From the IMG/VR virus record IMGVR_UViG_3300017743_000162, positions 1 through 21,701 of that record: a stretch of DNA of 21,701 nt. The stretch is one strand, 5' to 3'. A program made the position numbers and the translations under genes. Positions 1,218 to 19,687 of the stretch are shown here, piece by piece. The notes beneath the pieces are model-generated. The model was not told where the DNA came from, did no database searches, and saw only the letters and a list, made by a program, of their open reading frames with translations. Position 1 is the first letter of the stretch. Each line of letters opens with the position of its first letter. Source of the stretch: a virus.

Positions 1218-1589
1218 TCAATCGTATATTTTTTTGCCTTGTTTAATTCTGCCAGATCCTTTCTTGTCGTAGAATTTAACTCCGTGTCTCTTGGAGTCCA
1301 TAGAAAGTTGATCTTTTTCTTTCTTTTTTGCTCTTGCTCTTTCCTTCGCATCCCTTATACGCTCTTGCATTTGGGGGAATGAAATCTTACGGTTTAACTT
1401 AATTTCTTCTGTAGTGACTTTTTTATTAGGTAAACCTTTATGTTTGGTTGATGCAAATTTCTTTACATCGGTTTTCTTCATATCTGCGGCTGCTTTTGCA
1501 GTCTCAGGTGTAGTTGGTGCTTGTTCGCCTTTTTGAATGGCACGAACGATTCCAAAAAATCTCTGTTGCTTCTTTGATAAAGCTGGCAT
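1218..1589 (-). CDS. DUF3008-like small basic protein
   Basis: This 123-residue protein is very rich in lysine. It begins MPALSKKQQRFFGIVRAIQK, the signature start of the DUF3008 family (MPAxSKKQQxFFGxV), followed by a conserved TPETAKAAADMKKTDVKKFAS block and TKHKGLPNKK. The C-terminal half (residues 65-123) is a basic, probably helical extension (ERARAKKKEKDQ) ending in KQGKKIYD. The function of the family is unknown; its members are common in T4-like phages near head genes. The start codon overlaps the stop of the upstream capsid-targeting gene as TAATG, so translation is probably coupled. Its charge suggests DNA binding or a place inside the head, which is inference. Confidence 0.8.
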   Translation of the reverse strand: MPALSKKQQRFFGIVRAIQKGEQAPTTPETAKAAADMKKTDVKKFASTKHKGLPNKKVTTEEIKLNRKISFPQMQERIRDAKERARAKKKEKDQLSMDSKRHGVKFYDKKGSGRIKQGKKIYD

Positions 1590-1795
1590 TACTTCATATC
1601 CATGACAGACTTGCCATACTTCTTTTTGACAAGTTCAACTGCAGAAGGGCCTTTATTTACCTTCTGAGTCTTTTTCATTTCTTTACTTGGTGGCATTGTA
1701 GTTGCATCTTTCTTATCCTTGGATGGTCTTACCCTTCCTTGATCCCTTGCGACATCATACCCTTCTTCACTTATGAATTCTTTAAAAGTTTTCAT
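1589..1795 (-). CDS. Small basic protein with T4-type capsid-targeting leader
   Basis: This encodes 68 residues. The N-terminus MKTFKEFISEEG closely matches the capsid-targeting leader of T4 internal proteins and Alt (MKTYQEFIAEA), which directs proteins into the prohead and is removed by the gp21 protease after an (I/L)xE site. Here ISE at residues 8-10 would be the site. The remainder is hydrophilic and basic (VARDQGRVRPSKDKK, KKTQKVNKG, VKKKYGKSV), as expected of a DNA-associated internal head protein. GGTGAG upstream of the ATG can serve as a ribosome site. It lies between the 592-residue protein and DUF3008 in the late region. The role is inferred from the leader. Confidence 0.72.
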   Translation of the reverse strand: MKTFKEFISEEGYDVARDQGRVRPSKDKKDATTMPPSKEMKKTQKVNKGPSAVELVKKKYGKSVMDMK

Positions 1796-1798
1796 CGG

Positions 1799-3577
1799 TT
1801 ACTCACCTTCTCTTGCTTTATATCCTTTGTAGTGCATTCTTGCTCCACCTTCACTTGTGTAAGTTTCTCTCTCCATTCTACCACCCATCTTACCTGATCT
1901 TCTTAAAGCATTCCTATCTGCTGCTCTTTTTGCTGCTGCTTTTCTGTTTCTATCATAAGAGGACATCGCTTCACTCATACCCTTAGTTTTTACACCTCTT
2001 TTTGCTTCATGTTCTTTCTTTCTTTGAACTGCAAGTTTTGCTCTTTGTGATATGTCTTGCCCACGAGGCCCAGATCCTTGTGGATCAAATTTACCTTTTG
2101 TACCAAACCTTCTCTCATTTCTTGCTGCATCTTTTCCAAAGATCATTCCTTTGTCTACTTTTGCTTCATCAACTTGATCATAGATCTTTTGGTAAGCATC
2201 TACAAGACCTTGATCAGGTTTATAACCCATGTTAAGACCCATTGCTCTCATCTTATTCTTTGCCAAATTAATCTTTGTAGGCATTGAACGAGGATCATCT
2301 TCCTCTTTCTTTTCCTTCTTAGACTTAGGTTTAGTATCCATTTCTGGTTTCATCATCTCTTCTTCTTTCAATCCCTTCTTGATACCCTTCATTGCACCTT
2401 GACCTGCACCTTTAATTGCACCACCGACTGCACCTGCAGTACCACGAAGAACTGCCATACCAGTTTTCTTAGCGACCTTCTTAACATTCTTAACTGCTGG
2501 TTTCACAACCTTTTTCATAGTTGCTTTAGTAATTTTGTCGTCAAGTTTATTGAACTTTTTAACTCCTGACTCTACACCTTTAGCAACATTAACTAACATT
2601 CCCTCATCAACTAAATCACCATCTGCTTCTTTAGATGCCTGAATATCACTACCAGCACCCATGCGAACTGCTTGAAGTTTCTTCATAAGAACTTGCTTCT
2701 TCGCCATGTTTGCTTTCTTTTCCTTTGATGCTAATGCAGGATCTGGTTTTGTCTCCATCTCCTCCCTTACTTCATCAGGGAAAACTTTAATAAGTTTCTT
2801 GTTATTAACTCCATCACCTGTAATTTTCTTTTCTTCAGTATGTTTCTTCTCAACGAGTCCTTTGAAATCAGTCCAAACTTTATCTTCACTTGAAGCAATT
2901 GCTTTACCAATAGCCTTACGACGCTTCATAAGATACTTATCAGAACTATCCTTATCACCATCATTATCTACATCACCATCTTCTTTTCCAACTGGATCTA
3001 AACCTTGCTTTGCTTTTGCAGTAGACTTACCTTTATACTTCTCAGATTTAGTAGGTTCACCATATGCAGTCATCTCAACAGATGAGATATTTGGATTACT
3101 ACGAAGATCAGAAATCTTTGAACGACTTGCCATTCTTACATATGAATTGCCAGTCTTTTTATCAGTAACTCTTACCTTAAAAGTTTTCTCATCAGTCTTC
3201 TCTTCTTCGTTTATATCTTCAGAACTAGGAGTACCATCACCATGCTCTATAACTTTACCATTAGCATCTTTCTGATGATGCTCTACGAATACTCTATATA
3301 ATGCTCTTGCTGTATGCTCTTGAACCAAATCTTTTACATCAATATATCCTTCACCCATAAGCATTTGTTTTGCTCTTGCCTTTATAGCAGGTGCAGAAGG
3401 TGACTTTGCAAGTTGTGATAAAAATGCCTTTCTCATTGCAGCAGGATCGATACGACCACCTGCCTTTGCTTTCATACTTTGCTTTACTTTATAGCGTGTA
3501 TCGTATGCAAGTTGTCTCGCCTGTTTATCGATTTTTTCCTTTGCTCCAACCGCAGGAGCTGCCACTGGTTTGTCCAT
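1799..3577 (-). CDS. Large lysine-rich virion-associated protein with an EF-hand-like loop
   Basis: This 592-residue protein has low-complexity, highly charged composition (many K, E, D, G, A, M) and no enzyme motif. Visible parts are a basic Ala-rich N-terminus, an acidic spacer (residues 115-130), a short beta-like domain (KTFKVRVTDKKTGNSYVRMA, about 131-150), a calcium-loop-like DVDNDGDKD at 202-210 followed by the helix SSDKYLMKRRKAIGKAI, a Gly/Ala-rich stretch at 380-402, and a basic C-terminus. The Asp loop plus KYLxxRRKAIGKAI recurs in structural proteins of T4-like cyanophages as I remember them. An exact TATAAATA box 31 bases before the start supports late expression. A virion or head-interior role is inference. 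Confidence 0.7.
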   Translation of the reverse strand: MDKPVAAPAVGAKEKIDKQARQLAYDTRYKVKQSMKAKAGGRIDPAAMRKAFLSQLAKSPSAPAIKARAKQMLMGEGYIDVKDLVQEHTARALYRVFVEHHQKDANGKVIEHGDGTPSSEDINEEEKTDEKTFKVRVTDKKTGNSYVRMASRSKISDLRSNPNISSVEMTAYGEPTKSEKYKGKSTAKAKQGLDPVGKEDGDVDNDGDKDSSDKYLMKRRKAIGKAIASSEDKVWTDFKGLVEKKHTEEKKITGDGVNNKKLIKVFPDEVREEMETKPDPALASKEKKANMAKKQVLMKKLQAVRMGAGSDIQASKEADGDLVDEGMLVNVAKGVESGVKKFNKLDDKITKATMKKVVKPAVKNVKKVAKKTGMAVLRGTAGAVGGAIKGAGQGAMKGIKKGLKEEEMMKPEMDTKPKSKKEKKEEDDPRSMPTKINLAKNKMRAMGLNMGYKPDQGLVDAYQKIYDQVDEAKVDKGMIFGKDAARNERRFGTKGKFDPQGSGPRGQDISQRAKLAVQRKKEHEAKRGVKTKGMSEAMSSYDRNRKAAAKRAADRNALRRSGKMGGRMERETYTSEGGARMHYKGYKAREGE

Positions 3578-3584
3578 TAATTTA

Positions 3585-4778
3585 TTATTTGGATTTTTTT
3601 CTATATTTATTTATAAAGTGTCGTCCGTAACTACTTCCGGGAACCATAGTTTCTGCGTATTTACGGTGTGCATCAGTGCCAACTTCCCTTTGATTTGCAG
3701 GGACACCAGACTGTGTTGTTCCATTTACAATTGATTCTGATACATCTTTAATCCATGATTTAAACATAAAGTTCTCCTCGGTCACACAGATCAAATGATT
3801 TGCACCACGACGAATGATACGACCAACTAGTCCATTATTCATATTCTCTACCATCTGACCAACACGATATATTTTTTCTTGTACATAATTATCACGAAGA
3901 CCTTTCCAATCAAACTTAGGTGCAATCTCCCACATGTTGAAACCTTCTTTAACATTCATTGCAGTTCTTATCTTCTTAAACAATTCCTCTGCATCCTTTT
4001 GATTAAGTGATTTGGGTACACCTTTCATAAAGGTTTTGATGTCTCCTTCAGCAGCAGCCTTTCTCTGCTTTGATGCAGACATACCTGTTATATCATCTGA
4101 ATCTGGATCACGATCACCAGCAGATTTAATCTCTAATTTATCAAACTGATATAACTTACCATTATAATTACCTGTTAACTTCTCAAACTCTTTAACACGA
4201 TCTGCTCCACCAAGTATACGAACATTTGCATATCCATCAGTATGTGCCTTCTTTAATACATCAAAGATAGTTCGATTTGCTTTATCATTTACAATCTTAT
4301 CCTTATGCTTTGGAAACATCTTTTGCATGACAGATACTTTTGTATCAGCATCTAATGGATTCTTCTTCTTATCCTGAGTTCTTGAAGGAACAATCATATA
4401 GTCATTATCATCTGAAGATGATGCTACAGTATCTAATAATTTTTCATGACCTGTTGTTGGTGGATTAAAACGACCAAATGCAATCGTCAGAGTTCCTTTC
4501 GTCTTCTTGACCTCTGGGGGTTGCATTGTCATTGTTGGTTCTGCTGCAGGTTCGGCAGATGATGCTACTGATAATCTCTTTTCTTTATCTGACTGTGGTG
4601 GATCTTGCTCGCCTACTTTCTGTCTTTTATTATAAAACTTTAATGTTCCTTTTTCAGTCTTTGCTACAAACTCTCCCTTTTTATCGTACCATCCTCCATG
4701 ACCGTCACCCTTCAGACCCATTCTTGTGGCCTGTTGAACAGCATTTGATTCTGATAAAAATTGGAATAGTGATTTCAT
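3585..4778 (-). CDS. Nucleotidyltransferase (HxGH superfamily) with capsid-targeting-like leader and KOW-like C-terminus
   Basis: I prefer the start at 4778 (MKSLFQFLSESN), two codons inside the longest frame; the 4784 ATG is possible. Counting from 4784, there are three parts. (1) The leader MKSLFQFLSE resembles T4 capsid-targeting sequences, followed by a small GWYDKKGEFVAKTE segment. (2) The nucleotidyltransferase core at about 97-245 has IAFGRFNPPTTGH with TTGH at 110-113 and the second nucleotide-binding motif SASKQR at 236-241, as in NMN adenylyltransferase and cytidylyltransferase relatives. (3) The C-terminal domain at about 303-350 (YRVGQMVEN, GLVGRIIRRG) resembles an SH3/KOW barrel. 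Substrate cannot be read from sequence. The first residue of the TTGH motif is Thr instead of His, as in several family branches. The combination suggests an enzyme carried in the virion. Confidence 0.78.
   Translation of the reverse strand: MKSLFQFLSESNAVQQATRMGLKGDGHGGWYDKKGEFVAKTEKGTLKFYNKRQKVGEQDPPQSDKEKRLSVASSAEPAAEPTMTMQPPEVKKTKGTLTIAFGRFNPPTTGHEKLLDTVASSSDDNDYMIVPSRTQDKKKNPLDADTKVSVMQKMFPKHKDKIVNDKANRTIFDVLKKAHTDGYANVRILGGADRVKEFEKLTGNYNGKLYQFDKLEIKSAGDRDPDSDDITGMSASKQRKAAAEGDIKTFMKGVPKSLNQKDAEELFKKIRTAMNVKEGFNMWEIAPKFDWKGLRDNYVQEKIYRVGQMVENMNNGLVGRIIRRGANHLICVTEENFMFKSWIKDVSESIVNGTTQSGVPANQREVGTDAHRKYAETMVPGSSYGRHFINKYRKKSK
3608..3615 (-). promoter_or_regulatory. T4-type late promoter box TATAAATA
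   Basis: The minus strand reads TATAAATA exactly, 31 bases upstream of the ATG of the 592-residue gene. It lies inside the last codons (Ile-Asn-Lys) of the nucleotidyltransferase gene, so coding constraint could also explain it. Spacing to the downstream start resembles that of the box at 971-978. Confidence 0.55.
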
Positions 4779-4996
4779 CTGCAAAGTTTCATTGTGATCG
4801 TCTTTTCATTCGCGATCAGATAATTTATTAACTTTTGTCTCATTATAACATATTTATCTTTCTTTCGTTTATGCTTTTTATTTTTAATTAATTTTTCAAA
4901 TGCCTGAAAACAATGATATAAAAAATCATTATATCTTTGTCTTCTGTTTGTTGATTTCGATTCAAAGGATCGAATGAGTTCGTCGATGTTAATCAT
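4775..4996 (-). CDS. Small basic protein of unknown function
   Basis: This encodes 73 residues, MINIDELIRSFESK onward, with a strongly basic middle (KLIKNKKHKRKKDKYV) and a C-terminus ending TMKLCR. No known domain is apparent. The start ATG overlaps the stop of the 390-residue gene by four bases (ATGA), and its own stop lies at or just past the nucleotidyltransferase start, so it fits the tight operon. The minus strand carries GATAAATA inside it at 4851-4858, which might be a weak late promoter for the nucleotidyltransferase. It is probably real because of the overlap geometry. Confidence 0.6.
   Translation of the reverse strand: MINIDELIRSFESKSTNRRQRYNDFLYHCFQAFEKLIKNKKHKRKKDKYVIMRQKLINYLIANEKTITMKLCR
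4851..4858 (-). promoter_or_regulatory. Possible late promoter box (GATAAATA) inside the 73-residue gene
   Basis: One mismatch from TATAAATA, about 73 bases upstream of the preferred nucleotidyltransferase start. It would let that gene be expressed late, apart from the replication genes upstream. It is a short match inside coding sequence, so confidence is low. Confidence 0.3.
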
Positions 4997-6165
4997 TTCT
5001 TTTTGTAGTCACACATAATATGAGATGGATATAGTCCACCTTGTTTATTTCTAAGGTTGAACATAAACTTATACTTACTACTCTCACAATGAATATCTAG
5101 TCTTTTACCAGACCCTCTTGCTCCACCATAATGTAATTTAACTTTACCAGTTAACTTTGAACTTGTTTTCATCAACTGTTCTGTCATTTCAAATGTAGTA
5201 AATTTAGGGCCACTTTGATGAACCATATAGTAATTATATCCAATTGCATATTGCAATAGATCTTCAATCTTAGTTGTCTGACATTTTTGAGTTACATCTA
5301 CAACTTTTCCTTTATAACCTTTACCATATTGATTGAAGATTCTAGCATATTCTATCTTATCAATATTAAACATTTCAAATAATGCACTACCAATATTATT
5401 TTTATAACCCTTAAAAGAATTTTTATAATCTTTATCTGTAAAAATTGTTTTTACACCAGAGTTGATAAATGTCAATGTATCTCCAAACTTGCATGAAAGA
5501 TAAATTTGTTTTGCACCTCCAAATGTAGCAGTAATATCTGAGACTGTGCTTCCAATATCTTTAGTTTTTTTACCACCTGCTGTTACATACAAACCACCAG
5601 AATAGTTTAGTGGTCTTGGTTTATTTGCACCTCCAACTTTAATTGCTTCAGAGATACCTCCTTTTATTTTCTGGTTTTTATTAATAAGTGCGATCAACTC
5701 TTTTGCTTGATCTTCATATTTTGTATGTTCACAAATACATTCTATTTCACATTGAAGACTTTTTAAAAATTCATCTTCATAAGCATTTCCCCTATTACCA
5801 CCACCTTGACCACCAAACTCAGAAGTTTTTTGCAAGTCACCCAATCCAAGAGTTGCAACAGTATTATCATTTTGAAATTTGCCAACAAGAAGAATTTGAT
5901 TTCTTGGGCCTGTTAACTCCATGTTCTCTTGCATCCTTGCAAGTGCCTCTTGATAATCACCAGATTGATCTGATAAGTATGATACGACTTCATCACCATC
6001 AACTTTAAAAACTAAGTATGATGGAGCAAAGATACCCTCTTTTGGTTTACCATTTTTTCTTTTTACATTAAAAAGATTCATGCGATGATCCATCTCAAAA
6101 AATTTTTTCAAGAAGATTTCCTCATTACCTCTTTTTCCCAAATCAGATTTGGTTAAATTAGCCAT
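4993..6165 (-). CDS. Unknown 390-residue protein, possibly PD-(D/E)XK nuclease-like
   Basis: I do not recognise this gene by name. It has a charged N-terminal domain (MANLTKSDLGKRGNEEIFL), a Gly-rich linker GGQGGGNRGNAYED at about 118-131, and then a domain with an order reminiscent of restriction-like nucleases: a helix with Glu (YEDEFLKSL, E130), an Asp (GSTVSDITATF, D210), and a strand IYLSCKFGDT with K226. The D-x(n)-xCK pattern lacks the usual acidic residue before Lys (S224 instead), so a nuclease call is tentative. The C-terminal part (LHYGGARGSGKRLDIHCES) is basic. It overlaps the neighbours on both sides (TAATG upstream, ATGA downstream), so it sits in the same transcription unit as the unknowns below MazG. 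Confidence 0.75.
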   Translation of the reverse strand: MANLTKSDLGKRGNEEIFLKKFFEMDHRMNLFNVKRKNGKPKEGIFAPSYLVFKVDGDEVVSYLSDQSGDYQEALARMQENMELTGPRNQILLVGKFQNDNTVATLGLGDLQKTSEFGGQGGGNRGNAYEDEFLKSLQCEIECICEHTKYEDQAKELIALINKNQKIKGGISEAIKVGGANKPRPLNYSGGLYVTAGGKKTKDIGSTVSDITATFGGAKQIYLSCKFGDTLTFINSGVKTIFTDKDYKNSFKGYKNNIGSALFEMFNIDKIEYARIFNQYGKGYKGKVVDVTQKCQTTKIEDLLQYAIGYNYYMVHQSGPKFTTFEMTEQLMKTSSKLTGKVKLHYGGARGSGKRLDIHCESSKYKFMFNLRNKQGGLYPSHIMCDYKKK

Positions 6166-7078: not shown

Positions 7079-8452
7079 TTAAAATTTAAATTCGGCAAAA
7101 GTTTTTTTAGGAACCTTTTCTTCAGTATACTCCTCTTTGGTTCCAGAGTCAAGCACATCTTCCTGTGCCTTCTGTTCACAGTCATATAATCTCATCTTTG
7201 CACGATCAATACCTACGATAAATCTTTTGTATATAGTAGGATCATTATACCGATTCTTGAGTTGTTTGACCATTATCTGTCCCAACCCCTCAAGCTCCTC
7301 CGTACTAATAAGAGCGAACATAAGATCAGCAGTGGCAGGAAGACCGAATGACTCGCTTGTATCAGTAAGATCCACATCACTGCTAGCAAAACCAGAGCGA
7401 GTCGTCTGAGTAGCGGAGAAGATAGGAACATTAGCCTCAACTGCAAGACCCCTGAGCTCTTCAGCAATCGCCTTAATATAGGAATACGAGTTAACATTTG
7501 TTCCAGTTCTGTAACGAGAAGATGCACATATGTTTAAGTAATCTATGAATATTATATCAGGTTTAAATGATTTTTTCAATGCCAATTCATTAAGCAATGC
7601 TTTAAAATGTCCAGAATGTGCAGATGCAGTTGGATATTCTTTGATAATTAACTGTCCTTGTGTCTTACTTGATATCTTCTTAACCTTCTTATCAAACATT
7701 GGTTTAGGTAAATCGGTTAAGTTTTGTATCGGAGTGTTTAGTAAGTTTGCGTCAATTCGTTCAGCAATTTTCTCTTCTGCCATTTCCATTGTAATATAGA
7801 GTACATTCCGTCCTTGGAGCAACACGGAGCTAGCGAAGTGGCACATGAATAAAGATTTGCCGACACCTGTACCAGCCAACGCGATGTTAAGAGTCTTATT
7901 AGGTAAACCACCTTTGGTAATTTTGTTAAAGTATTCAAGATCAAAGGGGATTTTGTCTTCTGTTCTATGGTAGTACTCGTATCTGTCATCAGAGTTTAGT
8001 ATGTAATCGTGTCCAATATTGTTATCGAAAGAAACAGCAAGTGCATCAGAAAGAATTGAAGGAATCGCATCACGATTTCTTTTCTCATCTTCACCATCAG
8101 CAATATGAATTGACTCCATCAAAGCAAGATAAATCGCACGGTCACGACACCACTTCTCAGTTGTATCTAATAACCATTGATGATCTATAGGTGAGTCATT
8201 TAATTCTTTACTGATATCATTAATGTTCTTAACTTCTTCTGCTGTTAAGTCTGTTCGATTTTCAACCTCAATATTTAGTGCTTCAAGAGTTGCACACGAA
8301 TCATACTTTGTAATAAAAGAAACAAGTTCATCAAATATTATCTTTTCACTTCTTTCTTCAAAGAAATCAGATTGTATAAAAGGAATTGTTTTACGAGCAT
8401 ACTCTTCACTATAAACAAGATTCCGAAGAATCGTAGTTTCAATTCGTTCCAT
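7079..8452 (-). CDS. 41: Replicative DNA helicase gp41 (DnaB-like)
   Basis: This is the hexameric 5'-3' helicase of the T4-type replisome. It unwinds at the fork and works with primase. The 457-residue protein is close to T4 gp41 (475). An N-terminal helical domain (to about 160) precedes a RecA-type motor: Walker A AGTGVGKS at 193-200, the ITMEMAEEKIAERI segment after it, Walker B IFIDYLN at 301-307, and SATQTTRSGFASSD with the downstream arginine-rich segment GIDRAKMRLYDCE. The start ATG at 8452 overlaps the end of uvsX by 14 bases. MazG follows after two bases. All key ATPase residues are present. Confidence 0.95.
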   Translation of the reverse strand: MERIETTILRNLVYSEEYARKTIPFIQSDFFEERSEKIIFDELVSFITKYDSCATLEALNIEVENRTDLTAEEVKNINDISKELNDSPIDHQWLLDTTEKWCRDRAIYLALMESIHIADGEDEKRNRDAIPSILSDALAVSFDNNIGHDYILNSDDRYEYYHRTEDKIPFDLEYFNKITKGGLPNKTLNIALAGTGVGKSLFMCHFASSVLLQGRNVLYITMEMAEEKIAERIDANLLNTPIQNLTDLPKPMFDKKVKKISSKTQGQLIIKEYPTASAHSGHFKALLNELALKKSFKPDIIFIDYLNICASSRYRTGTNVNSYSYIKAIAEELRGLAVEANVPIFSATQTTRSGFASSDVDLTDTSESFGLPATADLMFALISTEELEGLGQIMVKQLKNRYNDPTIYKRFIVGIDRAKMRLYDCEQKAQEDVLDSGTKEEYTEEKVPKKTFAEFKF

Positions 8453-9446
8453 ATGAGAATGATGCCTTTGAGATTTCGTCTAATTTTTCCAATACTTCTG
8501 GTGTGAAGTACTTTTCTGGTTCTGCATATATCTGTTTTGCATATATTTTCTTACCATCTATCTCATATCTACCAGCAACATTCTTCCACATACCACCGAG
8601 TTCTCCCAATTCAAGAAGACCATAGTATCTATCAAGACCTCTCTCATCATAGTAGAGTCTTATTTCGACTTGTTTGTTTTCTCTTGAGAGTCTACTTTTA
8701 GCCGTCTTAGCTTTAATAATGTTTCCAACAACCTCTGTCTTATCCTTTTCCTTTTTTTTGCTGAGATAAATGATTGTAGACGAGGCATATTTGAGGCCAC
8801 TGCCTCCTCCCATTTCTTTAGTTGGGACATAAGATCCGATAACATCGTAAGTGTGGTTTGTAACTATAAGTGGAATATTTGCTTGACCAAGTTTTAGTGT
8901 GAGCATACGGAATGCTCCCTTAACAAGTTGAGATTTGGTCATGTCTCTAACCTGTTTATCATCTAATGCGTCTCTTATTTCCTTCTCTGTAGAGAGCATA
9001 CCTAAAGAGTCTAACACAAACATACAGGGTTTGCGACTCTCCTCTTCTGTCTTGAGGTATATATCTACTGCACGAAGTGCTTTACTTCTAAACTCTTCAA
9101 TTGTTACGACATTGACAACAACCAACCGTGATGTATCAATTCCACGAGACTCCAGTAATCCTTTAGTGACTGCTGCTTCAGTGTCAAAATAGAGACAATA
9201 CCCATCAGGGTTAGTGTCCAAAAAGTTCTTGACGACAGCAAGTGCAAAATAAGTTTTACCAGTAGACGACTCACCAGCAATGGCAGTAATACGATTGCTA
9301 GAAACCCCGCCAAGAATAGACCCACTAATGAGTCCATTAAAAATGTAGGATCCAGTGTCAATGAATCTTTCAGTTTCATCAATATCCGACGCAAGTTGCG
9401 TATATTCATCCCCGATCTCTTTTACTATCTCTTTTAAAAAATCCAT
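8439..9446 (-). CDS. uvsX: UvsX recombinase (RecA-like)
   Basis: UvsX is the phage strand-exchange ATPase used in recombination-dependent replication and repair. I place the start at the ATG at 9446 (MDFLKEIVKEIGDEY); the longer frame uses a TTG at 9470 that would overlap the upstream 46-residue gene, and the ATG lies one base after that gene's stop. The 335-residue product has Walker A GESSTGKT at 58-65, the ATPase Glu region YFDTEAAV, Walker B MFVLDSLG around 142-148, and GGGSGLKYASSTIIYLSKKK corresponding to DNA-binding loop 2 and the strand after it. The C-terminal region ends SYGTN. It overlaps gp41 by 14 bases. Confidence 0.95.
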   Translation of the reverse strand: MDFLKEIVKEIGDEYTQLASDIDETERFIDTGSYIFNGLISGSILGGVSSNRITAIAGESSTGKTYFALAVVKNFLDTNPDGYCLYFDTEAAVTKGLLESRGIDTSRLVVVNVVTIEEFRSKALRAVDIYLKTEEESRKPCMFVLDSLGMLSTEKEIRDALDDKQVRDMTKSQLVKGAFRMLTLKLGQANIPLIVTNHTYDVIGSYVPTKEMGGGSGLKYASSTIIYLSKKKEKDKTEVVGNIIKAKTAKSRLSRENKQVEIRLYYDERGLDRYYGLLELGELGGMWKNVAGRYEIDGKKIYAKQIYAEPEKYFTPEVLEKLDEISKASFSYGTN

Positions 9447-9447
9447 A

Positions 9448-9588
9448 CTATGTTTCAATGTTGTATTCAATAGTTACTATTTTAGATGACTTACCTTGAC
9501 TATTCCCATAGGAGTTGTAAGTAATCTTACCTTTGAGTTGTTTTGCAATGTCATCAAGTTGTTGCAAAAGTTCTTTTTCATCTTTCAT
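9448..9588 (-). CDS. 46-residue protein between the 61-residue gene and uvsX
   Basis: I read this directly. The ATG at 9588 overlaps the stop of the 61-residue gene as TAATG, and the frame ends TAG at 9448-9450, one base before the uvsX start. The product begins MKDEKELLQQLDDIAKQL (a charged helix), then KGKITYNSYGNSQGKSSKIV and ends TIEYNIET. It fits the spacing of the operon perfectly and leaves no intergenic base unused, which is the main evidence for coding. Function is unknown. A small partner of UvsX (as UvsY is in T4) is a possibility only because of position; no sequence similarity to UvsY is claimed. Confidence 0.65.
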   Translation of the reverse strand: MKDEKELLQQLDDIAKQLKGKITYNSYGNSQGKSSKIVTIEYNIET

Positions 9589-9773
9589 TATATCACCATA
9601 TTATGTTCTTCGCGAAGAATCCTTTTGTAAGGCCCTCCGGGATTTGCATCCATAACTTCTTGAACTAACTTCATTTTATCATATAAATCACCACACTTAT
9701 CTTCACTCTTTCGACATCTCCACAGTGCAGTAACTATGTAGTCGAACTCTTGTTTATCAATTGGTAAGTCCAT
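9588..9773 (-). CDS. Small conserved protein of unknown function
   Basis: This encodes 61 residues: MDLPIDKQEFDYIVTALWRC, then RKSEDKCGDLYDKMKLVQEV and MDANPGGPYKRILREEHNMVI. It is a short, probably helical protein with two cysteines that are too far apart for a CxxC zinc site. I recall similar short proteins between gp43 and uvsX in T4-like cyanophages. Its start overlaps the end of gp43 by one base and its stop overlaps the next ATG, so it is translationally coupled on both sides. Confidence 0.75.
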   Translation of the reverse strand: MDLPIDKQEFDYIVTALWRCRKSEDKCGDLYDKMKLVQEVMDANPGGPYKRILREEHNMVI

Positions 9774-12274
9774 TATGTAAAAAATAGTTCAAGGTTTACA
9801 GTTTTTTCGACATTCCACCCAATAGCATCAAGTATTGCTTTAAGTGGTTCTAAGAAACTCTTCTCAAATTGTAGTTCATAATCTATGTATTTGTCAAGTT
9901 TAAGTTCTCTTGGAAAGTCCTGAATAAAGGATACTACATTTTCTTGGATGATGTTTGGTTTTTTAAGATATATGAATTTGATCTTTTCACCATTACCAAT
10001 CAGTGAATACTTCTTGTCAAGTTTATTCTTTTTAATATAGAAATTAAAAAGCAATGCCCCACGAGCATGTATCGGTGTGCCTTTACAATAGATGTCTGTG
10101 CGTGAATGATACTTCTTGACATTTGATACTGTGCGAGGGAATGCAATCTCTTCTGGTGGAAGTGTTTTGAACTTTGTACGACATTCATCAATATAATCAA
10201 TCACTTCCTCTTCAGTTCCATTCATCATAATCTTGAGACCATTCTTAATCATTGTGCGACAAGGTGCAGGAGTTGAGGATTTAACTGCCTCAATACCCAT
10301 CATCTTGAGATTAGGTTCTTCATATCTTACACCCTCACTATCCCATACATTTAGAATATATCTTTTCTTTGCTGTCCATATACCACGCTCTGCGATGTTT
10401 TCCCTTTTCATAAACATCATTTGATCATAAGCATTTACATAATTTGCTAATTCTTTGTATGATGTGTCGATGAAGGGTTCAAACTTCTCTTCACAAATTT
10501 TATCGATGAACGAAACAATGCTCTCAGCATCCTTCTCTCTATCTTTGTAGACAACATCCACCAAAGGGCCAAGATTGAGATAGATTGAATCAGTATCACT
10601 AGCAATAACATAATCGGTATCTTCTGTTTTAAGGATTTTATTTAGATAAGCATTCATCTTATTCTCAATCCATCGAATACTTACCTGACCTGAAAGAGTG
10701 ATTGCTTCAGCATTTGCTAGTTTGTAATAACGAAAGTACTGATTGCCGATAGCACCATAAGCACTATTAAGTTGTATCTTCCTCGCCATTTGAATGTTGT
10801 TACATCTGGAAATCTCTTTCTCAAGAGTTTTCGTCTTCGTCTTTTCATATTGTTGCTTTGCCTCCAACATCTTCTTTTTATATATTGTTCGATCTTTGTA
10901 GATCTTTTCCATCAATTCAGGTAAGAATCCACGAACATCTTTACGATACATTGCACCATTTGCACAGACAGCACTGTCTTTATACAATTCAAAGTTTACA
11001 TCTTCTGCGAGGATTTTATCAACAGTAGCAGAGGGATGCCTTTGATCAATAAGAGTTTCTGGAGAAATATTATACTGCATAATCAAATGCGGATATAGAG
11101 AGTTAAGGTCAAAACTCACCACCCAATCATACTTTCCGGGAATTGGTTCTTTAACATATGCACCTGCATACTTTTCATTCTTTTGTGATCGATTCTTTGG
11201 AGGAATAACAATATTTCTTTTTTTAAGATAATTATAGATGATGGTATCCCACATACGAACCTGCGAGAATACATCAACATAGTTTGCTTTTGCATCATAT
11301 GCCATTGTAATTGCAAGTTCAATCAACTTCATCTTATCTTCCAAGCGGTCAACAAGTTCCACATCAATGATGTTGTATTCAACAAACTTCTGCCAACCTT
11401 GTGTATAAAAGTCCTTGAATGTATCAAACTCACTGTGATCTAACTTCTTCTGTCCAAGTTCAACACTTGCAATATAATCCAAACGATAGGACTCTTGTGC
11501 CTTGTATGTAAATTTCTTGTAAAGATTTAAATAATCAAGTTGAGTAATGCCACCAACATCATATGCAATATTCTTACGACCTGCAATATAAATCTCATCT
11601 TCAGTAACAAGGCCCCAAGGAGAAAGTCTCTTCATTAACTTAGAACCAAGAACTCTTTCCAATCTACGCGATAGATAGGGGATATCATATAATTCAATGT
11701 TCCAACCTGTAATTACTTCTGGAGTATTCTCTTCAATCATCCACCAGTTGATAAAAGCATTTAGAAGTTCATACTCTGAATTGAATGACTTGTAAATGAC
11801 ATTATCTTGTTTGTTATTAAATGGCCCCTGACCCCATGTGCGAATCTGTTTTGTTGTATAGTCCTGTATTGATATAAGTAGTATTTCTTCTGCCGAAGAT
11901 TCTACATCAGGGAATCCATTCTCAGACTTCACCTCAATATCAAGTGTAGTTAATTTAATCTTGCTTATATCAAACTTGACTTCTGGTTCCGGATACATCT
12001 CAGAGATGTATTGATAGATATATCTGTCATTTCCGTAGATATCAAAATTCTGTACACCATCATATCTTTTGAAGAACTCACGACAATCACGAACTGAACC
12101 GGGATTGATTGGTTCAACAGATTCACCAGTAAGAGTCTTATACTTAGTATTCTTTTTTGAAGAGACGAAAAGAGTTGGGGCAAAAGATTCTCGTACCATG
12201 AAATGTTTACCATTCTCATAACCACGAACTAAAAAATTATTTCCAACTAATTGAACATTAGTATAGAATCTCAT
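9773..12274 (-). CDS. 43: DNA polymerase gp43 (family B)
   Basis: This is the replicative DNA polymerase with proofreading. The 833-residue protein is somewhat shorter than T4 gp43 (898). Exonuclease motifs are Exo I LDIEV (D112, E114), Exo II NIELYD (N192, D197) and Exo III YNIID (Y300, D304). Polymerase motifs are A DLNSLYP (from D389), B KIQLNSAYG (K499 to G507) and C SDTDS (D560, D562), with a KKRY segment downstream. The C-terminus VNLELFFT looks like a clamp-binding tail, the place where T4 gp43 contacts gp45. No intein or split is seen. The ATG at 12274 overlaps the stop of the endonuclease gene by four bases. Confidence 0.97.
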   Translation of the reverse strand: MRFYTNVQLVGNNFLVRGYENGKHFMVRESFAPTLFVSSKKNTKYKTLTGESVEPINPGSVRDCREFFKRYDGVQNFDIYGNDRYIYQYISEMYPEPEVKFDISKIKLTTLDIEVKSENGFPDVESSAEEILLISIQDYTTKQIRTWGQGPFNNKQDNVIYKSFNSEYELLNAFINWWMIEENTPEVITGWNIELYDIPYLSRRLERVLGSKLMKRLSPWGLVTEDEIYIAGRKNIAYDVGGITQLDYLNLYKKFTYKAQESYRLDYIASVELGQKKLDHSEFDTFKDFYTQGWQKFVEYNIIDVELVDRLEDKMKLIELAITMAYDAKANYVDVFSQVRMWDTIIYNYLKKRNIVIPPKNRSQKNEKYAGAYVKEPIPGKYDWVVSFDLNSLYPHLIMQYNISPETLIDQRHPSATVDKILAEDVNFELYKDSAVCANGAMYRKDVRGFLPELMEKIYKDRTIYKKKMLEAKQQYEKTKTKTLEKEISRCNNIQMARKIQLNSAYGAIGNQYFRYYKLANAEAITLSGQVSIRWIENKMNAYLNKILKTEDTDYVIASDTDSIYLNLGPLVDVVYKDREKDAESIVSFIDKICEEKFEPFIDTSYKELANYVNAYDQMMFMKRENIAERGIWTAKKRYILNVWDSEGVRYEEPNLKMMGIEAVKSSTPAPCRTMIKNGLKIMMNGTEEEVIDYIDECRTKFKTLPPEEIAFPRTVSNVKKYHSRTDIYCKGTPIHARGALLFNFYIKKNKLDKKYSLIGNGEKIKFIYLKKPNIIQENVVSFIQDFPRELKLDKYIDYELQFEKSFLEPLKAILDAIGWNVEKTVNLELFFT

Positions 12275-12684
12275 TGTTTCCCCTCAAGATATACAATTAT
12301 TTTTTTGATGCCCTCTATATCATCACCATGCAAACCCATAGATGTATTACATTTTTTACATATCCAACCACGAAACTCTTCTTTGACTGAATCATGATCA
12401 AAACACACACCTGACATTTCTTTATCATGAGTCATTGAAATGCCACAACATTCACAGGGAGTTCCTGCAGGAGGTTTTGTATATGTTCCTTTTTTCTTGA
12501 TAGCAACTCTTTTAGTCCTATCAGAATGTGTCCGACATGATATACAGATCTTACGACGAAATCTTTGTGAACCATAACAATTCCAACCAAAAGCATCAAT
12601 AGGTTTTATCTCCCCACATTTATTACACTTTCGAGTTGAATCCTCTTCTAATTCAATTCCAAGTGCTTCAGCAAGTGCATTCAT
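12271..12684 (-). CDS. Endonuclease VII-like nuclease with extra zinc ribbon
   Basis: This 137-residue protein is a member of the recombination endonuclease VII family (beta-beta-alpha-metal fold). T4 endonuclease VII (gp49) resolves branched DNA before packaging. The core is visible: CECC (C77, C80), CFDHD with D96 and H97, FRGWICKKCN with C109, C112 and N113. The cysteines would hold zinc, and the Asp-His and Asn match the catalytic Asp, His and Asn of the family. An additional N-terminal ribbon has CNKC (C20, C23) and CISC (C47, C50). It overlaps gp43 by four bases. It could be the phage resolvase or a freestanding homing-type nuclease; the sequence alone does not decide. Confidence 0.85.
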   Translation of the reverse strand: MNALAEALGIELEEDSTRKCNKCGEIKPIDAFGWNCYGSQRFRRKICISCRTHSDRTKRVAIKKKGTYTKPPAGTPCECCGISMTHDKEMSGVCFDHDSVKEEFRGWICKKCNTSMGLHGDDIEGIKKIIVYLEGKQ

Positions 12685-12947
12685 CAGGCAATCAAATCAA
12701 GATACTCAGCCAGTATAGCAGATGTTGGAGTAACTAGTGTAAGAATACTGTCAGAATGTATCATCATTTCAGTCTGTGATGTATAATCCAACCAAGTTTC
12801 TAGTTTATATTCATCATTTTCTTTGACCATTTTATATGGTTTGATCATTTTACAATCAGGGCCACCAAGTTCGGTATCCATTTCCATGATCTGTGATATC
12901 AATAAATCACCATTCTTAAGTAGTAAGCAATTAATAATCTGATCCAT
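12684..12947 (-). CDS. Small Sm-like beta-barrel protein, paralogue of the next gene upstream
   Basis: This encodes 87 residues, MDQIINCLLLKNGDLLISQI then MEMDTELGGPDCKMIKPYKMV and a C-terminal strand region (DSILTLVTPTSAILAEYLDL). The order of a K-x-G-D/E-x-x-I-x-x-hydrophobic first strand pair, a later xxPxxV strand and a terminal VTP segment repeats in the proteins at 12931-13239 and 20945-21229. That pattern resembles the strand layout of Sm/LSm folds, but the similarity is weak and by eye. The start overlaps the upstream gene by 17 bases and its stop overlaps the endonuclease start as TGATG. Confidence 0.7.
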   Translation of the reverse strand: MDQIINCLLLKNGDLLISQIMEMDTELGGPDCKMIKPYKMVKENDEYKLETWLDYTSQTEMMIHSDSILTLVTPTSAILAEYLDLIA

Positions 12948-14659: not shown

Positions 14660-15045
14660 TGTCTTCCTCCAATATCAAGTTTAGATTTAATAAAATTCAG
14701 TTGTTCTTGTGTAAGAATCTTTAGAATCTGTTCCGCTTTTGCATTACTACATTCATAGTATGTCTTGACACTATCAAGTTCTTTGATTTTGTCTTTACGA
14801 AGCCAAGGAGAAAACCTTCGTTTTTTCCTCACTATATGTATAAAAAAGTCATGTTGCATCTTCTTTGGTAGAAATGGATACTTATTCATTTCATTTGCAA
14901 ACATAACTGTGTCAAGATGTCCTGATAAACACTTGTTAATTATGAAGGAAGGATATTCTTTTTCTATTGATGGATCTTCATCAATTTGATTATTTTTGTT
15001 TAGGTTGATCGAGTTCAACCAATCTTTCAGTTCCATCAGTTTCAT
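14656..15045 (-). CDS. 62: Clamp-loader small subunit gp62
   Basis: gp62 with four gp44 subunits loads the gp45 clamp. Characteristic segments are [58 protein letters not shown] and [11 protein letters not shown] choose the ATG at 15045 ([10 protein letters not shown]) or the one at 15036; the longer frame from 15096 would read antisense-free but out-of-family residues through the conserved end of gcvP. The product has 126-129 residues, shorter than T4 gp62 (187) but usual for marine T4-like phages as I recall. Its start lies inside the gcvP gene by 47-56 bases, and no good ribosome site is seen. regA follows with an ATGA overlap. Confidence 0.9.
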
Positions 15046-17776
15046 TATCAAAGTAGGAAGAACATGAGCAGACAAGATTACGATCACCGTAAACATTATC
15101 TATTCTTGCTACTGCAGGCCAAAACTTACTAGTTTGTTCTACAGGATATGCTGCTTGTTCTCTGGTATAATTATACACCCATTCTGTTGAACTTACAACC
15201 CTTGCAGTATGTGGTGAATTCTTCACTATCTCAGGTATTGCAAATATTTCTCTCTTAATCATCTCCATTGCTTTTGCAAATCTTTTCAATTCATCTAAAG
15301 ATTCTGATTCAGTTGGTTCAACCATCATCGTATTTGCAACTGGCCATGATAATGTAGGTGCATGAAAACCATAGTCCATTAGTCTCTTTGCAATATCCTC
15401 TGCTGTAACGGGAAAATTGCGACAATCAAATATACATTCATGTGCGATTCGATCATTATCTCCTCGATATAATACTTTAAAATATGGATCAATTTGATGT
15501 GCCAACCAGTTAGCAGATAGTAAAGATACTTCACTTGCCTTTCTGAGTCCTTCTCCACCCATCATTCTTATATACATCCAACTGATAGGTAAAATTGATG
15601 CACTACCATATTCTGCTGATGATACTCGATGAGTCACAAAAGGTGTTAGATGTTCTGCAACACCAATCGGGCCAACTCCGGGGCCTCCACCACCGTGAGG
15701 AATACAGAATGTCTTATGTAAGTTAAGGTGACATACATCTGCACCATAGTCACATGGTTTTGCAAGACCAACCTGTGCATTTAGATTTGCACCATCAAGA
15801 TATACCTGACCACCATTCTCATGAACGATTCTACAAATATCTTTGATAGTTGGTTCAAATACACCATGAGTCGATGGGTATGTAATCATAATACATGAAA
15901 GTTCAAATGTATTCATGATTGCTTTCTTCTCTAAATCTTTTAAATCAATATTTCCACTATCATCACACTTGACTGGAACTATCTTCATGCCCGCCATGAC
16001 AGCACTTGCAGGATTAGTTCCATGTGCACTCTCCGGTATAAGACAAACATTTCTCTTATCATCATCGTTACTTCTATGGTAATCTTGTATTGCTAATAGA
16101 CCTGCATACTCTCCTTGTGATCCTGCATTTGGTTGTAGTGATATAGAATCAAATCCTGTGATCTCACATAACCATCCTTTTAATTCCTTGATAATAATAT
16201 CATAACCAATTGTTTGAGATGCTGGTGCAAATGGATGAATGTTTGCAAACTCTGGCCATGAAACTGGCATCAGTTCTGATGCTGCATTTAATTTCATAGT
16301 GCAACTGCCAAGTGGCATCATACCATTTACTAATGAGAAATCTTTTGAAACTAACTCATTAATATATCTCATCATATTTGTTTCACTATGATAATTGTTA
16401 AATACTTCTTGAGTCAACCAAGGTTTAGTTCTCTCTGGCACACCTAACCAATGATAATCTCCGATTGAATCGATCACATGATCAATAGTGTCAAATTTAT
16501 TTGTAATATCTAATTGAGAATCTACAAGTTGTTTTAGTTCTTCTAATGTCGTACATTCATCTAGTGTAATTAAAGTGTGACCGTCTTCATAACGAACATT
16601 AAATCCTTCTAAAGCAAGAAAACTTTTAAAACGAACAGTATCAAATCCTTCAGACTGATCAACTTCTATCCCACACCATGCTAATGCCTTTTGTAGGGTT
16701 TGCCTATATCTTAATACTCTGGTTGCTATTCTTTTCAGACCTTCCGCACCGTGGTAAGCAGCGTAAAAACCTGCCATATTTGCGAGGAGTGCTTGAGCAG
16801 TGCATATATTGGATGTTGCTTTGTCTCGTCTTATGTGTTGTTCCCTTGTCTGTAATGCTAGTCGTAGTGCTTTATTACCTTGGGAGTCTAGAGACTGCCC
16901 TACAATTCGTCCGGGAATCTTTCTCTTATACTTTTCATTTATTGCAAAGAATGCTGCATGAGGCCCACCAAATCCCATAGGTATACCAAACCTTTGCATA
17001 CTACCAACTGCAATATCAAATCCCATCTCCCCTACAGGTTTCATTAACACCTGTGCCATTGGGTCTACAACCGCAATCTTCATACACTTATATACATCTG
17101 CAATACGAATAAGTGCATTCGGATCACGAAGTCTACCTTTATTATTTGGTAACTGAACTAATAATCCAAAAGCATCATCAAAATCTTCTAGTGCTGCTAC
17201 AGTATGCCAATCAAGTAATTTTATTTCTATCCCTAAAGGTTTTGCTCTTGTTTCTAATACTTGTAATGTTTGAGGAAATACTTCACTATCAACCAAAAAT
17301 ACATTTTTCTTAGATGCACTATGAGCAAGTAACATTGCTTCTGCTGCTGCAGTTCCTTCATCTAACAAAGATGCATTTGCTATTGGCAACCCAGTAAGTT
17401 CTGTAATCAGTGTTTGATAATTAAATAATGCTTCTAATCTACCCTGAGATATCTCTGCCTGATATGGTGTATAAGATGTATACCATGCAGGATTCTCAAA
17501 AACATTTCTTTGTATTACTGGTGGTGTAATTGTACCATAGTATCCTTGACCAATTAAGGATCTTTTAACTCTATTCTGACTTGCTATTTCTTTTAATTCA
17601 GTAAGTGCCTCTTGCTCACTACACCCATCAGGTAGTTTATAATCCCCTCTTAATAATATAGAATCTGGAACTATTTGTCTGACAAGTTCATCCAAACTAG
17701 AAAGACCCAAATCCTCTAGCATTTGAGTCTGTTCTGCCTCTGATGGGCCGATGTGTCTAGAAATAAATTCTGTCAT
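14990..17776 (-). CDS. gcvP: Glycine decarboxylase P-protein (GcvP), full length
   Basis: GcvP is the PLP enzyme of the glycine cleavage system: it decarboxylates glycine and passes the aminomethyl group to lipoyl-GcvH; with GcvT and Lpd the system yields CO2, ammonia, NADH and methylene-THF. The 928-residue protein (E. coli 957) is intact: N-terminal RHIGP (7-11), [16 protein letters not shown] (100-115), GGPHAAFFA (270-278), second half [10 protein letters not shown] (489-498), [11 protein letters not shown] (582-592) and the PLP lysine in LNLHKTFC (K688) followed by a Gly loop. The conserved end [10 protein letters not shown] is followed by about 18 extra residues overlapping gp62. The ATG overlaps the upstream stop as TAATG. 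No gcvT, gcvH or lpd is in the window, so host partners are needed. Confidence 0.97.
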
Positions 17777-18033
17777 TAAATACCTTGATCTTTTTGACTT
17801 TTAAAGAAATCTGATAGTGTTGATTGCAATTGACCTTCATTTTCTTTTGGATCTAATTTATTATAACCTTTAATTTTTTTCCAATCATTATACATTGCCT
17901 GTAAGAACCAACTTGAAGCAAGACTATCTGCTCCTGATTCTAATAATTGAACTTGTCTTGAAGATAGTTGACGAGATTTGATGTCAATATATTCTGATCT
18001 CCAGTTAGAGTCATCGTAAAGTGGTGTTGCCAT
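17776..18033 (-). CDS. Small conserved protein of unknown function upstream of gcvP
   Basis: This encodes 85 residues: [20 protein letters not shown], then [40 protein letters not shown] and a polar C-terminus ([18 protein letters not shown]). It looks like a small helical protein; I recall relatives in T4-like cyanophages, without a function. The stop overlaps the gcvP start as TAATG, so the two are translationally coupled. Its start overlaps the last base of the capsid-targeted gene upstream. Confidence 0.72.
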
Positions 18034-18521
18034 TATCCGTATGTAAAAGTTTTTCCTTTGATTTGTGATTGACCTTCTGGGTTTTTACCCTGTGGTTTGA
18101 ATTTACCTAATTTAACATTTTTTGCTTTGCCCAATCCACCTTTGCGTGTTGCTGATAGTGTACCAGTTTTTTTCGTTTGTGTCAACACAGAGTCCTGTCC
18201 ATACTTTTTACCAAGTGCCTTTACAGTTTTCTTAAACTTTCTCTTACCCATCTTACCTGATGAGACAACATGACTTCTCTCTTTAACTTTTTTCTCTTCA
18301 CCAGTCTTCTTATCTTTCTCCATATATGAACCAGTTACTTTCGTAGCACCACCTAGACCTTTACCACGAATATCTTTATCTAATTGCTTTGCTCTTGCAC
18401 TATTTTCCTTTGCAGACTTACCTGCTCTGGATGCAGACAATGCGGCCATTCCACCTTTATCAGACTTGCTTTTTATTCTAGAAAGACTACTCTCGTCTAA
18501 AAACTCTTTAAATGTCTTCAT
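18033..18521 (-). CDS. Basic protein with T4-type capsid-targeting leader
   Basis: The preferred start is the ATG at 18521 (MKTFKEFLDESS); the longest frame starts at a TTG three codons earlier. The leader matches the T4 internal-protein capsid-targeting sequence (MKTYQEFIAEA), with a likely gp21 cleavage site after LDE (residues 8-10 of the 162-residue product). The mature part is extremely basic and rich in Lys, Gly and Ser (KSKSDKGGMAALSASRAGKS, KMGKRKFKKTVKALGKKYG, GGLGKAKNVKLGKFKPQ) and ends KGKTFTYG. It is probably packed in the head with the DNA. It sits among early and metabolic genes but has an AATAAATA late-like box 21 bases upstream. Confidence 0.72.
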   Translation of the reverse strand: MKTFKEFLDESSLSRIKSKSDKGGMAALSASRAGKSAKENSARAKQLDKDIRGKGLGGATKVTGSYMEKDKKTGEEKKVKERSHVVSSGKMGKRKFKKTVKALGKKYGQDSVLTQTKKTGTLSATRKGGLGKAKNVKLGKFKPQGKNPEGQSQIKGKTFTYG

Positions 18522-18541: not shown

Positions 18542-18549
18542 TATTTATT
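18542..18549 (-). promoter_or_regulatory. Late-promoter-like box AATAAATA before the capsid-targeted gene
   Basis: One mismatch from TATAAATA, 21 bases before the ATG at 18521. It overlaps the stop codon of the 379-residue gene. It would give late timing to an internal-head protein embedded in the early region. Confidence 0.4.
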
Positions 18550-19687
18550 ATCTAATGATTTGTATGTCATCATCCTGTGTCCATAGTTCTACCTTATCTC
18601 TAAATCTACCTTCTGCCTTTAACTTATCATATCTTTTAGTTGCTTTCTTCTTCCACCATGTAAGTATGTTCTCAAGATGAAACTTATCCCAGTTTTGACC
18701 ATGAACTAATTTATCTTGTTCACCATTAATAACTTCACGAACATTTGCATAACCATAATCAGATATGTAGAATCTCTTCTTTTGAGTTAGATTGAGAGCC
18801 ATATCAATAATGCCTGTAAACTGTTCCAATTCATTTTTCATATCATACTCTTTCATAGAGTTTTTAATTATAGATATCATCTTTGATTGTCTCTTCATCT
18901 TCTTAGAAGATGCTTTATTATCAGTCAATGGAGTATTATCATTCCATTCTTTAAAACGATTATGTAATTTATGAAATGCATCATCATGAAGCAATGGAGT
19001 AAATTTACTTTCAGTTAATCCTTTGTATCTCATGAATGGTTTTAAACCATCATACTGAGATGCCGATGTTGTAGATCCATACAAAGATGTTGTTTCAAAT
19101 AATGCAATCTCTTTATCAAATACTTTAGATATAGTTTCTCTAGCAAAATGTGAACAACATAATAATGCTAACAATTTACCACCAAGATAATTATATCCAA
19201 ATGGTTGCGAGGGAACAATCACAAAACCCATCGCAGTATGTCTATTCATTAAACTTAGATTAGCTGGTTTACCTAACCAAAGATTTCTAGGTTTGGAATT
19301 GATTGTAGGAGAACCAAATCGGATAAATCCAATAAGTTTCTTTGTATTCTTTTCATATACCATCCAACGCAACTCTCTACCGGGAATATTTGCTTCATTA
19401 TTATGAGATGATACAGCACCCAACATTGTCTTATAATAATCTTGAGGTAAACCATTTTGAAATCTATCACCGACAAAACGAATATCAAACTCCATATCGT
19501 TTGGATGAATATCTTCATTTAAAAATTCATCTTCAAAAGATGTAAGTGCACTAAAACTTTTAATAGTTTCTTTTTTAACATATCTAAGGTAATCTTCTAT
19601 ATTTCCCATACGAGAAAAATACTGTATAAACTCATCAGCAGCCCATAGAGTATTATCTTTAGAAATAAGATTAATCGTCATGGTCAT
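18548..19687 (-). CDS. 379-residue protein with a possible DUF4338 (DruA-like)/GNAT-like core
   Basis: The start may be the ATG at 19687 or 19681. The central part reads RELRWMVYEKNTKKLIGFIR (about 104-123), GSPTINSKPRNLWLG (125-139), then MGFVIVPSQPFGYNYLGGKL (153-172) and LALLCCSHFARETISKVF (172-189). This order (W-x-V, LxGxIRxGSP, RxxWxG, hydrophobic strand, Gly-rich GGK turn, helix) resembles the acyltransferase-like DUF4338 family that includes DruA of the Druantia defence system. I make that comparison from memory and cannot test it. The C-terminal half is charged and helical with no motif. It overlaps the PsbN-like gene at its start. Confidence 0.7.
   Translation of the reverse strand: MTMTINLISKDNTLWAADEFIQYFSRMGNIEDYLRYVKKETIKSFSALTSFEDEFLNEDIHPNDMEFDIRFVGDRFQNGLPQDYYKTMLGAVSSHNNEANIPGRELRWMVYEKNTKKLIGFIRFGSPTINSKPRNLWLGKPANLSLMNRHTAMGFVIVPSQPFGYNYLGGKLLALLCCSHFARETISKVFDKEIALFETTSLYGSTTSASQYDGLKPFMRYKGLTESKFTPLLHDDAFHKLHNRFKEWNDNTPLTDNKASSKKMKRQSKMISIIKNSMKEYDMKNELEQFTGIIDMALNLTQKKRFYISDYGYANVREVINGEQDKLVHGQNWDKFHLENILTWWKKKATKRYDKLKAEGRFRDKVELWTQDDDIQIIR

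Follow-up and report, generated by a model that had tools for sequence, protein, structure and literature searches.

Internal proteins of the T4 head, and T4 Alt as an injected enzyme, are already known. Within the IPIII leader, residues 4 and 7 govern targeting and residues 8 and 10 govern processing (PMC9026906, a review of Black's work). IPII and IPIII of T4 (AF158101) both start MKTYQEFIAE, while IPI starts MKTFKEFTSTTTPVSTITE and has its site at residue 19. The preliminary description of the DNA considered here gave MKTYQEFIAE as the leader of T4 internal proteins and of Alt alike; this holds for IPII and IPIII and fails for Alt, which begins MELITELFDE.

Enzymes in cyanophage particles have been found by several groups, for whom cargo and contamination were undecidable. 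The published virion proteome of S-CREM2 covers 52 of its 219 coding sequences (PMC10665884, Table 3). In the available text of that report, the authors propose entry of the virion SAM hydrolase into the host, where it would block restriction, while leaving contamination open, and a targeting leader is not mentioned. Cytidylyltransferase is likewise detected in virions of S-SZBM1, S-SCSM1, S-SM1 and S-CREM2, with virion presence reported for S-CBWM1 too. The main text of open-licence papers yielded none that links capsid-targeting sequences, a prohead protease or internal proteins to cyanophage virion enzymes, and the priority of the link between leader and virion enzyme is not certain.

The window, meaning the whole stretch analysed here, is a complete 21,701-bp IMG/VR record. 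It carries T4-like cyanophage replication genes (polymerase, UvsX, helicase, RegA and clamp loader), and its phage is a T4-like cyanophage of the Kyanoviridae. Three of its genes encode proteins with a T4-type leader: a SAM lyase, a predicted nucleotidyltransferase and a 68-aa basic protein. From the leaders we infer targeting, cleavage, ejection and activity in the host, and it is quite likely that the tagged proteins enter the head, lose their leader to gp21 and are injected.

Leaders at three gene starts

The three genes had been singled out in the preliminary description for a shared N-terminus with (I/L)xE at residues 8-10, and all three open reading frames are present with that site, each on the minus strand with an ATG start. 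The 68-aa basic protein (1589-1795) begins MKTFKEFISE, encoded at 1766-1795; the 162-aa SAM lyase (18033-18521; pI 10.4) begins MKTFKEFLDE, encoded at 18492-18521; and the 397-aa cytidylyltransferase/NMNAT-like enzyme (3585-4778) begins MKSLFQFLSE, encoded at 4749-4778. All four T4 IPIII positions (4, 7, 8 and 10) are satisfied by these leaders. Their targeting positions hold F4/F7, F4/F7 and L4/F7, respectively, and positions 8-10 read hydrophobic-x-Glu in the form of ISE, LDE and LSE.

A strict form of the leader, M[KRQN]x[FYL]xxF[ILMVF]xE, was scanned across six genomes (the window, two IMG/VR relatives, S-CREM2, S-SZBM1 and T4), where it matches 17 of 1104 gene starts versus 0 of 3957 internal methionines. 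Chance and general start-codon bias are ruled out as sources of the leader because not one internal methionine matches. Within the window, the strict pattern falls at 3 of 34 gene starts. A fourth match, at a TTG start within 8439-9470, is a false positive inside a UvsX/RecA-like gene. A looser version of the pattern served as a control, and in T4 it recovers ipII, ipIII and gp61.1.

In T4 gp61.1 (54 aa, annotated as hypothetical; 18966-19130 of the analysed T4 sequence) the leader is perfect (MKTFKEFIKE) and precedes a D; gp61.1 may itself be a T4 internal protein that has gone unrecognised. It also has a VNKGP motif in common with the module that forms the 68-aa protein. Homology of the two proteins was rejected: leader and VNKGP are shared, but a body-only shuffle test (30/2000) is too weak. 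Identity of gp61.1 with TifA was dropped as well, the gene in the TifA paper having 85 codons versus a 54-aa gp61.1. Small leader proteins also occur directly after gp23 in a 210-kb relative (MKHFRKFMEE; 8379-8627 of the analysed sequence) and adjoining the SAM lyase in P-SSM2 (MKSFKQFLEE; 3007-3267 of the analysed sequence).

Unrelated bodies behind a common site

The preliminary description counted two small basic proteins and one enzyme among the three. The enzyme at 3585-4778 stands, and one of the small basic proteins, that of 162 aa, turns out to be an enzyme as well: Pfam (PF23780, E 2.2e-19, 70.2 bits against a cut-off of 28), fold search and catalytic residues agree that it is a SAM lyase, with catalysis predicted. 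Its S-CREM2 homologue shares 57% identity over 96% of the query. Fold comparison was needed because sequence-only searches for solved SAM lyases gave insignificant phmmer matches and no profile match. The AF2 model is of modest confidence (mean pLDDT 59, pTM 0.56), and its best solved-structure matches are the phage SAM lyases 6zm9, 8bb1 and 7ock; Foldseek ranks 6zm9 first (E 4.6e-4) and returns 8bb1 too, and VIA gives Z scores to T3 SAM lyase of 9.1 (7ock) and 9.0 (8bb1). Svi3-3 contacts its ligand through Gly56, Tyr58, Glu69 and Gln104 (PMC7877911), and the counterparts in the window protein, assigned by motif rather than by superposition, are G64, Y66, E81 and Q109. G64, Y66 and Q109 are kept in 42 of 42 sequences; E81 is kept in 11 of 11 in alignment A1, and its column shifts in 10 rows of alignment A2.

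The predicted mature SAM lyase begins SSLSRIKSK, after LDE10, with a pI of about 10.5. A hydrophobic-x-Glu stands immediately before the SAM lyase domain in 81 distinct contexts, fusion proteins included; 80 of these were scored by script, and the remaining one, S-CREM2, where the script took an earlier Glu, has its true boundary at LEE|SS. Although the script anchored on Glu, the conserved Glu is not a search artefact, because the only 8 entries without it were all mis-anchored inside the domain. The distance between the targeting residues and the Glu varies, from MKTFKEFLDE|SSLSR in the window to MKTYKEFIQDIQE|SSLSR in P-TIM68, MKNFEEFKDQAQEELEE|SSLSR in S-H34 and MKDFDSFLEEFDRDQESLEE|SSLSR in S-CREM2, a range comparable to that of T4 (10 residues in IPIII, 19 in IPI). 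In S-WAM1 and S-SZBM1 the SAM lyase forms the final domain of a larger protein, with its leader internal (KSFKEFLEE|GNRT and ITYREFIAE|GNRT, respectively), and some further fusions retain hydrophobic-x-Glu only.

The surroundings of the SAM lyase gene hold several other genes of note. Directly upstream (18548-19687, minus strand) lies a gene for a 379-aa protein with a DruA-like domain (PF14236, 35.8 bits against a cut-off of 27; PADLOC DruA, E 6e-6). Two genes downstream of the SAM lyase, which consumes a one-carbon product, is gcvP, an unusual metabolic gene for a full-length, 928-aa glycine dehydrogenase (14990-17776, minus strand; PF02347, E 3e-171; phrog_22305). Elsewhere in the window, at 4993-6165 on the minus strand, a 390-aa phrog_8438 protein weakly matches the candidate defence family PDC-M35B (E 2e-4). 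In S-CREM2 (5245-6135) and in S-H34 (1449-2342; coordinates of the analysed sequences), a gene for a DNA adenine methylase is found close to the SAM lyase; the methylase itself needs SAM, and two SAM users should conflict unless their timing differs. Most marine picocyanobacteria are without restriction-modification, according to the available text of PMC9602691.

Behind its leader, the 68-aa protein consists of a module, EGYD..RD.G..PSKDKKDATT, with a predicted mature start of EGYDVARDQ. The module either stands alone behind a leader or lies within much larger basic proteins, and in each of its 31 distinct contexts a Glu stands at P1 (31/31) and one of I, L, M and V at P3 (31/31), P2 being variable. 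A segment related to the module occurs together with a SAM lyase in one protein in S-SZBM1_194 and S-WAM1_099. The 123-aa basic protein MPALSKKQQRFFG of the window (1218-1589, minus strand; DUF3008-like, below the Pfam cut-off) has its homologue at the N-terminus of S-SZBM1_194, the fusion that ends in a SAM lyase. Separate genes in the window therefore correspond to one fusion there, and fusions of this type would be polyproteins cut by gp21. A 592-aa basic protein without a leader (1799-3577, minus strand; pI 9.8) is likely co-transcribed with the 68-aa gene and is possibly a head-core precursor.

These features bear on whether the 68-aa protein is cargo at all. It could instead be a component of the head core, like the internal peptides that gp21 cuts from T4 gp67 and gp22, in which case only the two enzymes would act in the host. 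Such a role fits a small lysine-rich module that recurs within larger basic proteins and invariably follows [ILMV]xE, whereas its 10-aa leader is of the IPII/IPIII type; we put the core-peptide assignment at somewhat under an even chance.

The 397-aa protein matches PF01467 (35.2 bits against a cut-off of 21) and phrog_395 (E 1e-100), contains the (H/T)xGH motif of nucleotidyltransferases (GRFNPPTTGH), and is a predicted cytidylyltransferase/NMNAT-like nucleotidyltransferase. Its leader, MKSLFQFLSE, is followed by a DGHG module and then by the nucleotidyltransferase domain. The leader or a shorter form of it is found in 103 of 103 distinct N-termini of the family, the shorter forms being exemplified by the 9-residue MRFRQFIIE and the 8-residue MKSFFQFLE|S, and nearly all T4-like cytidylyltransferases examined carry it. 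A methylotroph phage enzyme of the same family begins MKKFSEIIE|A, and the neighbouring gene has MKKFSELTSELIE. In jumbo-phage homologues (GAP32, PA5oct and an Erwinia phage) the enzyme domain comes first, with no leader ahead of it. The block after the window leader, GDGHGGWYD..GEFVAKT, recurs in the S-CREM2 virion kinase, in two copies, and in the virion nuclease, and may be a second head-related module. Its S-CREM2 carriers, a Cas9-annotated nuclease and an APH/ChoK-like kinase (7704-10313 and 10579-12846), are both detected in virions.

With all three bodies in view, one may ask whether the leader is cut. It might target the proteins to the head and stay in place, the hydrophobic-x-Glu marking only the start of each domain. 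In T4 IPIII the targeting residues (4, 7) can be separated from the processing residues (8, 10), and some fused SAM lyases retain only the last residues before the domain, as an uncleaved leader would allow. Set against this, a P3/P1 pattern recurs across three unrelated bodies with P2 and spacing free to vary, which is how a protease motif behaves, and retention of an intact leader is very unlikely.

Leader proteins in published virion proteomes

All 219 S-CREM2 coding sequences were rebuilt from its record for a leader scan, and exactly five have the strict leader: ORF6 (the SAM hydrolase), ORF13 (78 aa), ORF14 (the APH/ChoK-like kinase), ORF136 (237 aa) and ORF154 (the cytidylyltransferase). 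All five are detected in virions (Fisher p = 6.5e-4), under a pattern that was fixed only after the S-CREM2 N-termini had been seen. The association gives p = 5.6e-5 among non-structural proteins only and p = 6.4e-4 once these are limited to lengths of 78 aa or more. With a looser pattern derived straight from the T4 positions, five of six matching proteins are in virions (p = 0.003); the sixth, ORF175 (MNWLKNYLIE), matches the loose pattern only, is absent from the virion list and is likely spurious. ORF12, the Cas9-annotated nuclease found in virions, has a leader-like LRFASFMAE that is internal and opens with a CTG codon, and was not counted. The leader genes 191 and 192 of S-SZBM1 and its fusion 194 are missing from the shallow, 30-protein proteome of that phage.

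The cytidylyltransferases allow a comparison between phages. That of S-SM1, detected in virions, begins MKKFSAFLNE, and no other leader gene was found within 49 kb of S-SM1. The S-PM2 homologue is without a leader as annotated and, in the available text of PMC3037559, was not detected in virions. The contrast associates the leader with the virion, and is only suggestive because laboratories and instruments differed.

These data speak to a competing account, in which the enzymes are late proteins abundant in the cytoplasm and carried along when virions are purified, the leader has another use such as scaffold binding or expression, and nothing is packaged or injected. The S-CREM2 and S-SCSM1 authors themselves say, in the available text of both reports, that their virion enzymes might be co-purified cytoplasmic protein, and purification on CsCl alone may leave adhering protein in place. 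Detection nevertheless tracks the leader, both in the five S-CREM2 proteins and between S-SM1 and S-PM2, and the bodies that share the leader, with its T4 targeting and processing residues, are unrelated. Co-purification is accordingly an unlikely explanation.

Protease, late expression and relation to known systems

A search of the 21.7-kb window fragment for gp21 (PF03420) gave no match, and neither did its controls, which makes the search uninformative. The 210-kb relative encodes gp21 between the portal and scaffold genes (PF03420, E 4e-35), and a 79-kb relative has a match to the gp21 N-terminus. The gp23 proteins of the window phage's clade have LSE|A or LTE|A near residue 55, which is consistent with the same specificity as at the leader sites.

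Among clusters of standalone SAM lyases, 23 of 30 have a T4-type late promoter upstream, counted as TAAATA at -40 to -15, versus 7.5-27% of all genes in three genomes. The window gene has a late-promoter-like ATAAATA in the context AATAAATA (18542-18548, minus strand), 27 nt upstream of its start. Late synthesis of the SAM lyase fits packaging. A T4-type late promoter, TATAAATA (3608-3615, minus strand), also lies upstream of the run of genes for the 592-aa, 68-aa and 123-aa proteins, and [ATC]ATAAATA is found within 70 nt of the 592-aa homologue in 22 of 22 distinct upstream regions. The motif is weak at cytidylyltransferase genes (7/80), and an upstream comparison of homologues found no consistent late promoter of their own for the 68-aa and cytidylyltransferase genes.

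The preliminary reading of the three as internal head proteins is thus supported by leaders that match at positions 4, 7, 8 and 10, by the S-CREM2 virion association, by virion homologues of two of the three window proteins (SAM lyase and cytidylyltransferase) in published proteomes of relatives, by a site kept in many unrelated contexts and by gp21 in the closest long relatives. On this reading the SAM lyase, the cytidylyltransferase and the 68-aa protein would be synthesised alongside the head proteins. Leader residues 4 and 7 would bring them into the prohead core, where gp21, the prohead protease, would trim them after the Glu of (I/L)xE. The trimmed proteins would remain in the DNA-filled head and pass with the genome into the next host cell; the phage particle, then, probably carries working enzymes that are injected with the DNA. 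Injected SAM lyase would deplete S-adenosylmethionine before any phage gene is expressed, and might also act on SAM synthase, like T3 SAMase. The cytidylyltransferase/NMNAT-like enzyme would be a second cargo, and the 68-aa basic protein a third cargo or a core peptide.

A broader scheme can be offered tentatively, as a possibility rather than an expectation. Marine T4-like phages may carry a modular first-strike cargo in the head, assembled from interchangeable modules (SAM lyase, nucleotidyltransferase, kinase, nuclease and basic peptides). Each would be addressed by a leader or embedded in a large basic head polyprotein, and gp21 would free it at hydrophobic-x-Glu. A late-made SAM lyase might be harmless until trimmed in the head, and then strike the host SAM pool.

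Three points are new here: a SAM lyase and a nucleotidyltransferase both bear the tag, the tag has predictive value for published proteomes, and its site is used in a modular way. The address tag names proteins to seek and predicts their exact mature N-termini, and it supplies a simple rule by which injected proteins for host takeover or counter-defence can be sought among marine T4-like phages, which are very abundant. The cyanophage virion reports concern a homologous cytidylyltransferase; the available text of those reports gives no packaging mechanism, and the leader offers one.

Like T4 IPI, IPII and IPIII, the window proteins have a leader of about 10 residues with aromatic or hydrophobic residues at 4 and 7, a hydrophobic residue at 8 and Glu at 10, as well as basic bodies and phages that encode gp21, seen here in relatives. 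T4 IPI and gp61.1 open with the same MKTFKEF as two of the window leaders. The bodies, however, are unrelated to those of the T4 internal proteins, and two are predicted enzymes; site spacing with window-type leaders runs from 8 to about 20 residues, and internal copies occur in fusion proteins. Ejection is extended to the window proteins, which are known from their genes, by analogy with T4-type cargo.

The T4 Alt ADP-ribosyltransferase is a precedent for an active enzyme that travels in the head, undergoes trimming by gp21 and is injected; it differs from the window enzymes in its leader and its chemistry. Fold and ligand-binding residues of the window SAM lyase are shared by T3 SAMase, by Svi3-3 and by the SAM hydrolase of S-CREM2 (ORF6), a homologue reported in virions. 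T3 SAMase is early and newly made, whereas the window SAM lyase begins with a head leader of the T4 type and its gene has a late promoter. Delivered in the particle, a SAM lyase would be at work before transcription, and would be better suited to defeating SAM-dependent defences than one that must first be expressed.
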